DNA of 64,000 nucleotides from Candidatus Vesicomyidisocius sp. Pext_18_S21 (GTDB taxonomy: Bacteria; Pseudomonadota; Gammaproteobacteria; PS1; Pseudothioglobaceae): contig CP072535.1 of the NCBI GenBank assembly GCA_021730165.1, positions 62,001-126,000 of the forward strand, in the 5' to 3' direction. A program made the position numbers and the translations under genes. Of this stretch, positions 5,833-30,996 are shown piece after piece. The notes beneath the pieces were generated by a model. It was not told where the DNA came from, searched no databases, and saw only the letters and a list, made by a program, of their open reading frames with translations. Within the stretch, counting starts at the first letter, position 1. Each line of letters starts with the position of its first letter.

Positions 5833-5930
5833 CAATTCTATCTAGATAACCTATCAAAAAAGTCTACAATTATTTTCAATGAAATTAAGTTAGTGTAGGT
5901 GATTTATGTTTGGTACAATTTTATTAGATA

Positions 5931-6203
5931 ATGATTATATTTCTTGTAACTGCAGAATTGCTTTATTTGTGTGGTTGTGGTGCTATCAAAGTAACACTTA
6001 AATCACGAAGATTGGCTCTCAAAAGCCACAGGGAAGAAATAACAAAATTACTAGATATGTTGGATGAGTTAAAACGGAGAGGTTATTCCGTAGAAGCAGA
6101 CTCTAAAGAATTTGAAGAGATATTAGATGGTTTTTCTGAAGCGTTGTTCGGAAGAAGTGGTTACAAGATGGCAATCCTATTTTCTTCTCCTAATGATAAT
6201 TAA
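5931..6203 (+). CDS. Hypothetical protein in the decayed island
   Basis: A 90-residue frame with a hydrophobic start (MIIFLVTAELLYLCGCGA) followed by a charged helical segment (HREEITKLLDMLDELKRRGY and EFEEILDGFSEALFG). I do not recognise it. The balanced composition and helix-like pattern make it look more like a real protein than most frames in this region. The start has no obvious Shine-Dalgarno sequence and an in-frame TAG lies two codons upstream, so it may be the surviving part of something longer. Confidence 0.35.
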   Translation: MIIFLVTAELLYLCGCGAIKVTLKSRRLALKSHREEITKLLDMLDELKRRGYSVEADSKEFEEILDGFSEALFGRSGYKMAILFSSPNDN

Positions 6204-7024
6204 AAATAATTTTAGTTATCGCTGGATGTATCCAGTCTACAGCTAGTAAATATACAATTTATAACTGTTAGGTAGAATAATTGGTGTGCTACTGATGTAC
6301 TCTGAAATAAAGGGTTTTGATTTGTGCTATTATACTGTTAATCAATAGTTATGGTTTTTTAGTTTTTTAGTTCGATTTGTGTTTAAAGCTATATCAATGT
6401 CATGCTTATTTTTAAGATATTTGTGACATCTAAAGCAATATTCGTCTAATTTGATTTAGGATATTTGTTTTACATCTATAGTAATAAGGTTAATGAGTTT
6501 TTGTAATTTTATTATTGGTTGTTTATGTTGAATTTTGATAGAAGACATGATAATTTTTACTTCAAAATTTGTATGAATAACCCATTCAATGAACTTTTTG
6601 GTATCAATAGAATTGTGATAATATTTACGTTTTAGATAGTTATTCTCATTGTGTATTGTAGAATTCATATTTCAGTACAGCATTCATTTAACTCTGATTT
6701 AACACCTTTTTTTGGATGAGGGTCTGCTGTATGAACTTCTTTACAAGGTCAACTGAGACGCTTAGCAGTACACAAAGTGCTTCGTTATATAACAATATTC
6801 ATATCAATAAGCCCTGTAGAATTGTTTAAATAGATAGGTTTCATCAATAATATGGTTATTGTGTAGTTGATATCAATATATTGAATATTGAGTTTTAGTT
6901 CGCGGGATCTTTTCCTTAGAGCAGTTGGAACCAAATAAGGGCCTTCATACTTTTGATCAAGCGATGATTGTAGTTCTTTGATAAGCTGTGTAGATTCGTT
7001 CTGGTTCAACTAACTCGTATTTAA
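6204..7024. other. Decayed sequence between the hypothetical ORF and the integrase remnant
   Basis: This stretch has short reverse-strand frames (about 70 codons at 6456-6668 and 6785-7009) with no recognisable domain and no good ribosome-binding site. They are best read as debris of genes that followed the integrase. Confidence 0.4.
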
Positions 7025-25655: not shown

Positions 25656-28385
25656 ATGCCACATAAACTAATTTTAATGGATGGCTCTGCTTTTTTATTC
25701 AGAGCTTATTTTTCTACGTTAAAGCAGAATTTAACCAATCAAAATGGGTTTCCTACAGGTGCTATGTTCGGTGTTATTAATGCTATAAAAAATCTTCAAA
25801 GGAAGTACCAAGAGGCTAGAATAATTATTATATTTGATGCTAAAGGTAAAAATTTCAGGCATGATATTTACCCACAATATAAAGCGAATAGAAAACCAAC
25901 TGATAGTGGATTAGTGCTTCAAATTGAACCTTTGTATGAGATAATTCAAGCTATGGGCATTCATCTTATATGTGTGCCTAAGGTTGAGGCAGATGATGTA
26001 ATTGCTACGTTAAGCTGTTGTACTAATCAAAATAATATTAAGACTATTATTGCGAGTGGCGATAAAGATTTAATGCAGTTGGTGGGTACGAATATTTCAC
26101 AATTAGATATGAAAGGTATTTTGCATGATCGCCAAAGTGTGATTGAAAAGATTGGTATTGCACCAGATAAAATTTTAGATTTTTTAGCTTTGACTGGTGA
26201 TAGTGTAGATAATATTCCTGGTGTACCTAGTGTTGGTCCTAAAACAGCTATTAAATGGCTACAAATTTATAGTGATATCTTAGGAATTAAGAAAAATGCA
26301 ATGCAGATTAAAGGAAAAGTGGGTGAAAAACTACGTGATAATTTTGATCTTTTAGATTTATCTTATCAATTAGTTAAGCTGAAATTTGATGTAGTGTTGC
26401 CTTTTAATATTTTAGATGATGAGCCAGTGAAAAATATTAATAAATTGGCTGATTTATATCAGCAGTATGGGTTTTTTATGTGGTTAAAACAATTAGATAA
26501 TGTGCCTGTATTAAAGCAAAAGAGTATGCAGGTTATTGGAACAGATACAGGAGTTAATAACTCGGCTGATATTCTTAAAGGCTATTCACAGACATTAGTA
26601 TTAGATTTGGATATATTTAATACAATGGTTAGTCGTCTTAAAATCTTAAAGACATTTGTATTTGGTTTAGAAGCTACTTCGTTAGATTTTATGAATGCTT
26701 CCATTGTTGGTTGGGTATTTTTAATTGATAAGGATAGTTTTTATGTGCCTGTTGGTCATGATTATCTAGATGTACCAAAGCAGTTGAATTTTAATGATGT
26801 ACTTAATCAACTAAAGCCAATTTTAGAGGATGTGTCTATTAGTAAAATTGGGCAAAATTTAAAATATAATGCACATATTTTATCTAATTATAAAATTGAT
26901 TTGCAAGGTATTAGTGATGATATTATAGTGAAATCTTATTGTTTAAATTCAGTTGCTACAAGGCATAATATGAATGATTTGAGTAAATATTATTTGAATT
27001 ATCAAACCATTCATTTTGTTGGTATATTAGGTAAAGGTAAAAAACAAATTACTTTTAATAAAGTTAATGTAGAAATTGCTCTTCTTTATGCTTGTGAAAA
27101 TGTGATAGTGATAAGTTTATTAAATTATATATTAGATGAAGAAATTGCTCAATATCCTAGATTAGTTAAATTGTATCAAAACCTAGAATTGCCATTGATT
27201 AAAGTTTTATTATGCATGGAGCGTAATGGTGTTGAATTAGATGTGAACGTATTAAATACTCAACAGTTAGATATTACGCAACAAATGAAGGATATTCAGA
27301 ATCAAGTATTTGAACTGGTAGAGAATGTGTTTAACCTTGAATCTCCTAAACAAATTCAACGAATTTTATTTGAGTCTGAAGGTTTAGGCTTAATTCCTTT
27401 GAGAAAAACCCCTAAAGGCGTACCCTCTACTAATGAGGAGGCTTTAAAACTTTTAGACCATCCGGTGGTAGATCTAATATTAAGTTATCGAACATTAGTT
27501 AAACTTAATTCTACTTATCTTGAAGCACTTCCTAGAAAGGTTGATTTAAATACGCATAGACTTCACACTTCTTATAATCAGGTAGTAACTGCTACAGGTC
27601 GATTATCATCAAGCAATCCAAATTTGCAAAATATCCCTATTTTCTCTGAACAAGGTTCGTATATTCGTAGTGCATTTATTACAAGTAAAGGCAATGTTAT
27701 TATTTCCGCTGATTACTCACAGATTGAATTAAGGATTATGACACAATTATCCAAAGATCAAAATTTATTAGAAGCTTTTAATAATGATAAAGATGTACAT
27801 AGCGAAACCGCATCAACTATGTTTAATATACCAATTGATGAAGTAACATCAGAATATCGTAGGCGCGCCAAAGTGATTAATTTTGGTTTGATTTATGGTA
27901 TGAGTGCATTTGGATTAGCAAAGCAAATTGGTGTATCTAGAACCGAAGCAAAGCAATATATGGATACTTATTTTGATAACTATCCTAGTGTGCTACATTA
28001 CATGGATAATATTAAAGAAACTGCAAAAATACAAGGTTATGTTGAAACTATTATGGGTAGACGTTTGTATTTACCACAAATTAATGCTAAAAATAAGATG
28101 TTACAACAACATGCACTTAGAACTGCTATTAATGCCCCAATGCAAGGTTCTTCAGCAGATATCATTAAAAAATCTATGCTTGATGTTTACACATGGATTG
28201 GAGAAGATAATCCAGATATTAGAATGATTATGCAAGTACATGATGAGTTGGTATTTGAGGTAAGTGCGTCAAAAGCTGATGAATTTTCCCGTAAAATACA
28301 AGCTTTAATGGTCAATGCTTATTTATTGGATATTCCTCTTAAAGTAGATATAGGGATTGGTAATTCTTGGAAAGAGGCACATTAG
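25656..28385 (+). CDS. polA: DNA polymerase I with altered proofreading site
   Basis: Pol I removes RNA primers and fills gaps. From ATG 25656 the protein has 909 residues; an upstream in-frame start at 25578 would add 26 residues that include the promoter region, so I reject it. The 5' nuclease domain keeps VEADDVIATL, SGDKDLMQLV and TGDSVDNIPGVPSVGPKTA. The polymerase domain keeps motif A DYSQIELR (about 684), motif B RRRAKVINFGLIYG (about 735) and motif C VHDELVF (about 862). The 3'-5' exonuclease domain is present but its metal-binding Asp residues are changed: FDTET of E. coli reads FGLEA (Gly337), NLKYD reads NLKYN (Asn405), and AAED reads ACEN (Asn482). The Glu of the first motif remains. 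Proofreading is therefore probably lost. Confidence 0.96.
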   Translation: MPHKLILMDGSAFLFRAYFSTLKQNLTNQNGFPTGAMFGVINAIKNLQRKYQEARIIIIFDAKGKNFRHDIYPQYKANRKPTDSGLVLQIEPLYEIIQAMGIHLICVPKVEADDVIATLSCCTNQNNIKTIIASGDKDLMQLVGTNISQLDMKGILHDRQSVIEKIGIAPDKILDFLALTGDSVDNIPGVPSVGPKTAIKWLQIYSDILGIKKNAMQIKGKVGEKLRDNFDLLDLSYQLVKLKFDVVLPFNILDDEPVKNINKLADLYQQYGFFMWLKQLDNVPVLKQKSMQVIGTDTGVNNSADILKGYSQTLVLDLDIFNTMVSRLKILKTFVFGLEATSLDFMNASIVGWVFLIDKDSFYVPVGHDYLDVPKQLNFNDVLNQLKPILEDVSISKIGQNLKYNAHILSNYKIDLQGISDDIIVKSYCLNSVATRHNMNDLSKYYLNYQTIHFVGILGKGKKQITFNKVNVEIALLYACENVIVISLLNYILDEEIAQYPRLVKLYQNLELPLIKVLLCMERNGVELDVNVLNTQQLDITQQMKDIQNQVFELVENVFNLESPKQIQRILFESEGLGLIPLRKTPKGVPSTNEEALKLLDHPVVDLILSYRTLVKLNSTYLEALPRKVDLNTHRLHTSYNQVVTATGRLSSSNPNLQNIPIFSEQGSYIRSAFITSKGNVIISADYSQIELRIMTQLSKDQNLLEAFNNDKDVHSETASTMFNIPIDEVTSEYRRRAKVINFGLIYGMSAFGLAKQIGVSRTEAKQYMDTYFDNYPSVLHYMDNIKETAKIQGYVETIMGRRLYLPQINAKNKMLQQHALRTAINAPMQGSSADIIKKSMLDVYTWIGEDNPDIRMIMQVHDELVFEVSASKADEFSRKIQALMVNAYLLDIPLKVDIGIGNSWKEAH

Positions 28386-29277
28386 TGATTTAACTTACAA
28401 GTTTTATTTTGTTATGTTATAGCTTGATTTTAATCAGTCATTTAAGTTTGTTAGATTTCTTTGTAAAAAAAAGATGTTTTAAAAAATAAAAATTTTCCAA
28501 TCCTAGATTTTAGAGTGGGTATTAAAAAAGCAAAAAATAATTGTATTTTGGTAGAATATAGAGAAATACATGTTATGAATCAATTATTACTCTTGTAATG
28601 TTAAAAATGACAATGAGTATAACAGTCGATATAACTAAATTAAATATAGTAATCTTTGGATTATTATATTAAAACAGAATTAGATCTGTATGTAAAAAAA
28701 TAGGTATATAAATTTTATTTAGATATATTACAGGATAGTAAAGATTAAATTTATTAGTCTTACACAGGTACGTGATAAATTAGATGTTTAACGTTTGATT
28801 TTAAAGAATCAATTGTATAAAAATAGTAAATTAGCGAGGTTCTTGTAAAAATATAAATTGACTTAATTTATTAAATCAAATAATTATTCTAATTTAGAAG
28901 GTGAATTTTTAGAGTTAGACGTCGAAAATGTTTTGAGATAAAAATAAAATTATCATTCACAAGAATAATAATTTCACGTCAAAGAAATAGAAATATATAT
29001 AAAATCAATTAAAATGAGTAAAAATACCACCCTTTCAGATAAAATAACTTTAAAAATATTAATAACTTTTGCTTAAATTAGTATCGATCTATTTGGATAT
29101 TGAGAATTTTTTGTATTTTATTGTATGGCTTATTTTTTTGTAGTTTATTTGATGTTTATAATGCATAATATTGGAAGGATTAATTATAGTTTCTAAATCT
29201 AACACATGAAGTAGAATTTATAGCAAAAGAACGCTAAAGCGATTGATTTTTACATTTAGAAAATACAGAAGATAATT
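28386..29277. other. Gene-free spacer between polA and argS
   Basis: These 892 bases contain no supported gene. Stop codons are frequent in all frames and I recognise no motif in short translations. It probably holds one or more genes decayed beyond recognition. Confidence 0.45.
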
Positions 29278-30996
29278 ATGAAACAACGATTACAACAATT
29301 GTTAATGCAATCTTTAGAAGTATTGATCGACAATAATATACTTGAAAATATGCCTGAGAATATTCGTATTGACCATTCTAAAAATAAAGCTCAAGGAGAT
29401 TTTGCTTCTAATATTGCGATGTTATTGTCTAAACAAGCACAGTGCTCCTCTAAAGTATTGGCACAAAAAATTAAAGCTAATTTTCCAGATTCTGTTGATG
29501 TGGAAAAGATTGAGATTGTAGGTCCTGGTTTTATTAATTTTTTTATGTCACAAAGTTCAAACGCTTTAGTGGTAGAGGATATTATTAAGCAAGGTGGGAA
29601 TTATGGTTTGTCTAATATTGGTATGGGGCAACGAGTTTTATTGGAATTTGTCTCTGCTAATCCAACAGGTCCACTTCATGTAGGACATGGTCGTGGAGTA
29701 GTATATGGTGCAGCGGTTGCTCACCTTCTACGTGCAGTAGGTTTTGAAGTTGATTGTGAATATTATGTGAATGATGCGGGTCGGCAGATGGATATTTTGG
29801 CTATTTCAGTTTATTTACGTTATGTTGAAACTGAACAATTTCCAGATAACGGTTATAAAGGGGATTATATTTTTGATATTGCTAAAAAAATTAAGGGTAT
29901 CAAAAAACTTGATATTTTTACTAATACTTGTAAAGATATATCCAAATGTAAGATTCAAAAAAATAGTATCGACAAGGAAAGACATATTGATGATTTGATT
30001 GCTAATTGTAAGTTCCAATTAGGAAGTGATTATAGAAAAGTCTTTGATTTTTCGATTAATAGTATTTTAAGTGGCATTAAGATTGATTTAGCTGATTTTG
30101 GTGTTGAATATCATCAGTGGTTCTCTGAACAGTCTTTAGTGGATAGTGGCTTGAGTGAAAAAATTGTTAAAAAATTACAAGATTTAGGATATATTTATGA
30201 AAAAGGAGGTGCTCTTTGGTTTAGAACCACTGATTTTGGTGATGATTTAGATCGTGTTGTAGTTCGTGATAATGGAATACATACTTATTTTTCCTATGAT
30301 ATTGCCTATCATTTTGGAAAGTTTGAACGTGGTTATGATAGGATTATCAATATTTGGGGTGCTGACCACCATGGTTATATAGCAAGGGTTAAGGCATCAA
30401 TTAAGGCACTTAATTACAATCCTGATAAGTTGGAAATCTTATTGGTACAGTTTGTTAACCTTTTTAGGGGTGGTAAAAAGGTTTCCATGTCAACCCGTAG
30501 TGGTTCGTTTATTACTTTAAAAGAATTGCGTGAAGAAGTAGGTAATGATGCAGCACGTTTTTTTTATATTTTACGTAAATCAACACAACAGATGGATTTT
30601 AATCTAGATTTAGCTAAATCAAAAAGTAATGAAAATCCAGTATTTTATATTCAATATGCTTATGCACGTATTTGTTCAGTTTTAAAACAGGGTAAGCCTT
30701 TTATGGCAGATATTGATTTATTGGTATTAAATAATGAGTTAGAAAGTTTATTAATTAAAGAACTTAATCGCTATAAAGATATCTTGCAATCATCTGCACT
30801 TAATTATGAGCCACACGTATTAGCTTGTTATTTACGTAAATTAGCTGGCTATTTTCACAGCTATTATAATAATAGTGAGTTTTTGGTAGATGACGATAAA
30901 TTGAGGAATTCAAGGTTATTACTCATTACAGCAGTTCAGCAAATATTATCGAATGGTTTAAATTTATTGGGAATTAGCACACCTAATTCAATGTGA
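29278..30996 (+). CDS. argS: Arginyl-tRNA synthetase
   Basis: ArgS charges tRNA-Arg. The 572-residue class I enzyme has the N-terminal Add-1 domain, the HIGH-type motif in [15 protein letters not shown] (about 124-138), a WGADHHGYI motif near 360, and a KMSK-like segment KVSMSTRSG. The C-terminal anticodon-binding domain ends with the usual helices. An insertion around residues 203-250 rich in Lys/Ile separates the catalytic halves. Its stop overlaps the GTG start of the next gene by 4 bases. Confidence 0.96.

Follow-up and report, generated by a model that had tools for sequence, protein, structure and literature searches.

The stretch of 64,000 nucleotides analyzed here (the window) lies in a complete genome of 1,023,779 bp (G000) and carries polA in an uninterrupted reading frame. 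The encoded protein scored over the cut-offs of NF004397 (1024 bits) and TIGR00593 (829 bits), and Pfam matches comprised 5_3_exonuc_N, 5_3_exonuc, DNA_pol_A_exo1, and DNA_pol_A. The domains follow in the order 5' nuclease, 3'-5' exonuclease-like domain, and polymerase, which is that of bacterial DNA polymerase I (PolA1). No second family A polymerase and no backup copy of polA were found in the window's genome. The conserved motifs of the 5' nuclease were found, and the polymerase domain carries motifs A and C with their catalytic Asp (DYSQIELRI at 686 and VHDE at 861, respectively) as well as the O-helix RRRAKVINFGLIYG. A first-pass annotation had described the motifs of both domains as intact and had placed the gene in a reduced-genome vesicomyid symbiont, and both statements agree with these results.

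Table 1. Position of polA, its domains, and the five exonuclease-site codons in the window (clade I, the window's genome and its three closest relatives; see below)
Feature	Position	Strand	Basis or remark
polA, DNA polymerase I, 909 aa	25656..28385	+	ATG start; NF004397 and TIGR00593, Pfam domains
5' nuclease (FEN-like) domain, intact	25656..26525	+	Pfam matches; conserved motifs present
3'-5' exonuclease domain, fold predicted to be kept, active site apparently degraded	26580..27155	+	PF01612, 57.9 bits
Codon 337 GGT, Gly for E. coli Asp355	26664..26666	+	gapless Klenow alignment
Codon 339 GAA, Glu kept (E. coli Glu357)	26670..26672	+	Lys in G034
Codon 405 AAT, Asn for E. coli Asp424	26868..26870	+	window species only
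Codon 478 TAT, Tyr kept (E. coli Tyr497)	27087..27089	+	
Codon 482 AAT, Asn for E. coli Asp501	27099..27101	+	AAT in 4/4 clade I genomes
Polymerase domain, intact	27156..28382	+	PF00476, 499 bits; DYSQIELRI and VHDE present

Residues of the 3'-5' exonuclease site

The DEDDy residues of the exonuclease (Asp355, Glu357, Asp424, Tyr497, and Asp501 in E. coli Klenow) read G, E, N, Y, and N in the window PolA. Three of the five are therefore replaced (D355 by G337, D424 by N405, and D501 by N482), while E339 and Y478 are retained, and the motifs FDTE, NLKYD, and YAAED became FGLE, NLKYN, and YACEN, respectively. These are the residue numbers that the first-pass annotation had given by eye, including the kept Glu of the first motif. 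The top matches of a phmmer search against the PDB were wild-type Klenow (1dpi) and D355A Klenow (1kln). Alignment of the exonuclease domain to Klenow of the PDB required one single-residue gap, which is distant from the motifs. The motifs and their flanks align without gaps, as had been claimed, and an acidic residue at a shifted position was found at none of the three motifs; an alignment slip was ruled out. With the DEDDy site lost and the remainder of Pol I intact, the window PolA would be classed by its sequence as a proofreading-deficient Pol I.

Exonuclease-site changes among relatives

The closest relatives of the window PolA belong to three genomes of ~1.02-1.03 Mb with 93% identity, of which G034 (1,022,154 bp) is presumably Ca. 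V. okutanii HA. Another member of the genus, G036 (1,160,782 bp), is taken to be Ca. Ruthia magnifica. The four small genomes (Vesicomyosocius, ~1.02-1.03 Mb) correspond to vesicomyid clade I of PMC3202245 and PMC5310779, because their pattern of recA, mutY, and uvrB loss matches the one published for that clade.

Of the 70 PolA rows in the family, 8 departed from DEDDy. Written as D355-E357-D424-Y497-D501, the clade I site is G-E-N-Y-N in the window, S-E-D-Y-N in both G042 and G037, and S-K-D-Y-N in G034. The replacements of D355 by Ser or Gly and of D501 by Asn are thus common to all four clade I symbionts, with E357K in G034 and D424N in the window species as terminal additions. At position 337, the three other clade I genomes carry Ser (AGT) and the remaining genus members Asp. 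Position 405 is GAT or GAC in every genus genome except the window's, and D424N accordingly rests on one genome. Close relatives outside clade I keep DEDDy, with the exception of two single changes, D501Y in G036 (D-E-D-Y-Y; codon TAC at position 482, which is Asp in the other genus members outside clade I) and Y497C in G039 (D-E-D-C-D). Outside the genus, two other family members, G066 (L048; K-K-D-Y-Q) and G001 (L070; D-A-C-Y-K), lost the site independently. Both of them are on long branches, and recA was over the cut-off in both.

With single-site ancestral states read from the tree, at least five DEDDy changes are required, and well-supported branches force four of these. Monophyly of clade I has a branch support of 100; with the clade on one side of a fully supported branch, a loss on its stem fits positions 337 and 482, and a later origin fits the changes at 405 (window) and 339 (G034). 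Scoring the motifs and dating the changes on a tree, which had been proposed as a check, thus returned a loss that is common to clade I and stepwise. The shared loss, its stepwise gain, and its near-absence in sister lineages go beyond what the first-pass annotation had described.

The codon paths run from GAT or GAC to AAT at 482, from GAT to AAT at 405, and from GAA to AAA at 339 in G034, so that the clade I codons suggest G->A steps. If position 337 followed the path GAT-GGT-AGT, the Gly of the window would represent either the earlier state or a reversal to it. G036, in which mutY carries a stop, went from GAC to TAC by a G->T transversion. Transversions of this kind are favored by MutY loss, yet a lone event proves nothing.

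Downstream of polA, a gap of 892 bp (28386-29277) with 20.7% GC precedes argS; no open frame longer than 44 aa occurs within it, and an Rfam search of it gave no match. The other clade I genomes share the gap, with a deletion shortening it in L005; in most of the remaining genus members, polA and argS are only a few bases apart. In L075, the position of the gap is occupied by an ORF of 211 aa (5841-6476) that is NYN/PIN-like by eye, and the gap is probably an eroded gene. The N-terminus of clade I ArgS (window 29278-29544; L009 and L075 compared) matched G044 and L019 (another genus) at 69-71% and most of its own genus at only 55-60%, which hints at recombination or at two argS versions beside polA.

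Selection, repair background, and interpretation

Conserved columns, counted as changed if altered in at least one clade I member and otherwise conserved, were changed in clade I at 15 of 73 positions of the exonuclease domain and at 20 of 314 positions of the 5' nuclease and polymerase domains combined (Fisher p=5e-4), with the 5' nuclease accounting for 6 changes in 120 columns. Neither the clade II set (7/77 exonuclease vs 20/324 rest) nor the Ruthturnera set (4/76 vs 9/319), which are not resolved as clades in the tree, reached significance in the same test. Within the exonuclease domain of clade I, the changes affected 4 of 5 catalytic columns and 11 of 68 other conserved columns (Fisher p=0.0055).

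In a codon model with separate branch classes for background, clade I stem, and clade I crown, omega of the exonuclease domain was 0.10, 0.17, and 0.29, respectively. An omega of 1 in the crown was rejected by 10.3 log-likelihood units, which indicates that purifying selection continues to act on the domain. Omega of the polymerase domain rose from 0.058 in the background to 0.176 in the crown. The near-equal rise in both domains (2.9x in the exonuclease and 3.0x in the polymerase) points to a general relaxation over the whole gene; relaxation specific to the exonuclease was not borne out by omega alone and appeared only in the conserved-column tests. The structure predicted for PolA had a pLDDT of about 82-97 in the exonuclease domain and found its best structural match in Klenow (TM 0.93-0.94 of the target over some 600 columns), although the alignment behind the model contains homologues and the model demonstrates only compatibility of the sequence with the Klenow fold. 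Taken together, sequence and model point to an active site that is gone in a fold that is kept.

Repair genes were searched family by family across 12 genomes of the genus. DnaQ was over the cut-off in all 12 with its DEDDh residues in place, and replication by Pol III should therefore still be proofread. MutS1 was absent from all 12 genomes, so that MutS-dependent mismatch repair would not be available to correct errors made by Pol I during gap filling. RecA was absent from the four clade I genomes and no more than a remnant in G036, and MutY was absent from clade I, interrupted by a stop in G036, and reduced to a remnant in G040. UvrB was intact in the eight genomes outside clade I; G034 lacked it, and G000, G042, and G037 retained only broken remnants. 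In the window's genome, the uvrB fragments have many stops and lie outside the window (G000:C1:407057-408786). Losses of recA, mutY, and NER have been published for clade I (PMC3202245, PMC5310779), and polA was not named among the repair losses of these symbionts in any paper found. The search for translesion polymerases covered the Y family (PF00817), of which no member was found in any of the 12 genus genomes or in G001 and G066.

Loss of 3'-5' proofreading with the 5'-nuclease and polymerase functions kept appears well supported by the residues of the three domains. The window PolA would be the ordinary DNA polymerase I of the cell, which matures Okazaki fragments and fills repair gaps, and its 3'-5' exonuclease site has probably decayed past function. 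By the chemistry of Klenow, a mismatched 3' end should stay uncut without the Asp residues that hold the two metal ions. It is very probable that catalysis was lost in the course of reductive evolution with the Klenow scaffold kept, and that this loss was tolerated rather than selected. Being a component of the Klenow body and still subject to purifying selection, the exonuclease domain would persist, and the loss would be tolerated as one of several in repair (recA, mutY, and uvrB), with DnaQ kept. Two terminal lineages of clade I have lost more (Asp424 in the window species and Glu357 in G034); Asp424 is kept in the three relatives of the window species, and some residual activity is therefore possible there.

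The other readings were judged against the same evidence. A sequencing or assembly error is hardly credible, as the changes at 337 and 482 are common to three other complete genomes and the frame is open, even though Asn405 was seen in one genome only. Weak exonuclease activity, persisting in the window PolA via Glu339 and Tyr478 or via an alternative metal ligand, is very unlikely; Glu and Tyr are kept, the domain holds several acidic residues and is still constrained, but all three metal-binding Asp are replaced in gapless motifs with no shifted acid at any of them. Klenow mutated at these residues is the standard exo-minus enzyme.

Adaptive loss is a more serious candidate but also improbable. 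The exo-minus Pol I would then act as a translesion polymerase able to extend mismatches and to read past damaged bases. Such a role has been proposed in H. pylori, whose Pol I bypasses lesions without proofreading in a cell that lacks Y-family polymerases and mismatch repair (PMC3121766). The setting is similar in that PF00817 is absent from the genus and from the exo-degraded G001 and G066, leaving by this measure no other translesion polymerase in the cell, mutS is absent from the genus, and in clade I uvrB is eroded and recA gone. However, DEDDy is mostly kept in clade II and Ruthturnera, which are likewise without MutS and Y-family polymerases, no sign of positive selection was found (omega below 1 in every class fitted), and the changes vary between species in a manner that resembles decay. 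There is thus only a slim chance that the clade I enzyme was retained as a translesion or mismatch-extending substitute for the missing pathways and raises the mutation rate, and tolerated decay on a kept scaffold is preferred.

The annotation had further suggested that the PolA loss could feed the AT drift of the genome. No support for this was found in this analysis, as replication should still be proofread by DnaQ and the losses of MutY and NER already offer explanations for the drop in GC (PMC3202245, PMC5310779); mutY loss has been tied to the reduced GC of clade I and R. magnifica (PMC3202245). The PolA changes occurred in the same lineages as mutY loss, and the effects of the two are therefore inseparable from sequence. 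Most PolA changes are G->A, as AT-biased mutation yields, and may be its consequence. The share of the genome that Pol I copies is small. According to work cited within PMC3121766, E. coli without Pol I proofreading shows a mutator phenotype biased toward the lagging strand.

While the principle of Pol I proofreading loss is already known, the interest lies in the steps preserved among close relatives, which would represent a stepwise and recent loss caught in progress within one bacterial genus. Living species show the site intact or with one, two, or three residues replaced, and their other repair losses have already been mapped; they provide a natural series for asking whether Pol I proofreading affects the rate and spectrum of mutation in cells that lack mismatch repair.

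Comparison with known Pol I enzymes

The window PolA shares the three-domain architecture of E. coli Pol I and ~48% identity over the Klenow region, but has G, N, and N where E. coli has D355, D424, and D501. Bst and Taq Pol I, both among the fold matches of the window PolA model, likewise keep the exonuclease fold with the catalytic residues gone. These losses belong to other phyla and their exonuclease domains are more degenerate, whereas the window PolA keeps E and Y of DEDDy and has intermediates in living relatives. Pol I of Helicobacter pylori (HP1470), also full-length, belongs to a genome that has neither mismatch repair nor Y-family polymerases; it was found to lack proofreading in vitro and to be mutagenic in vivo (PMC3121766). 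That loss was measured biochemically, while the one proposed for the window PolA is read from sequence and is recent, within one genus.

In a 2026 survey of >3000 bacterial species, roughly one in two Pol I orthologues had DEDDy substitutions; these were reported mostly from Firmicutes, Tenericutes, and Actinobacteria and showed no relation to genome size (PMC12926913). Among Gammaproteobacteria sampled evenly across families (loci L125-L223), clean losses of the exonuclease site occurred in 9 of 94 scorable genomes, and about nine in ten keep the site. Genomes with a loss were smaller (median 1.7 vs 2.8 Mb, p=0.0024), with losses in 6 of 26 genomes of up to 2.0 Mb and in 3 of 68 above, in a post hoc comparison with rounded sizes, some MAGs, and five unscorable genomes set aside. 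This concentration in small genomes differs from the bacteria-wide result (PMC12926913) and may be a within-class trend. The inactive-exonuclease PolA1 enzymes of that survey carry DEDDy substitutions as the window PolA does, but theirs are largely phylum-specific, whereas the window case is found at the level of species.
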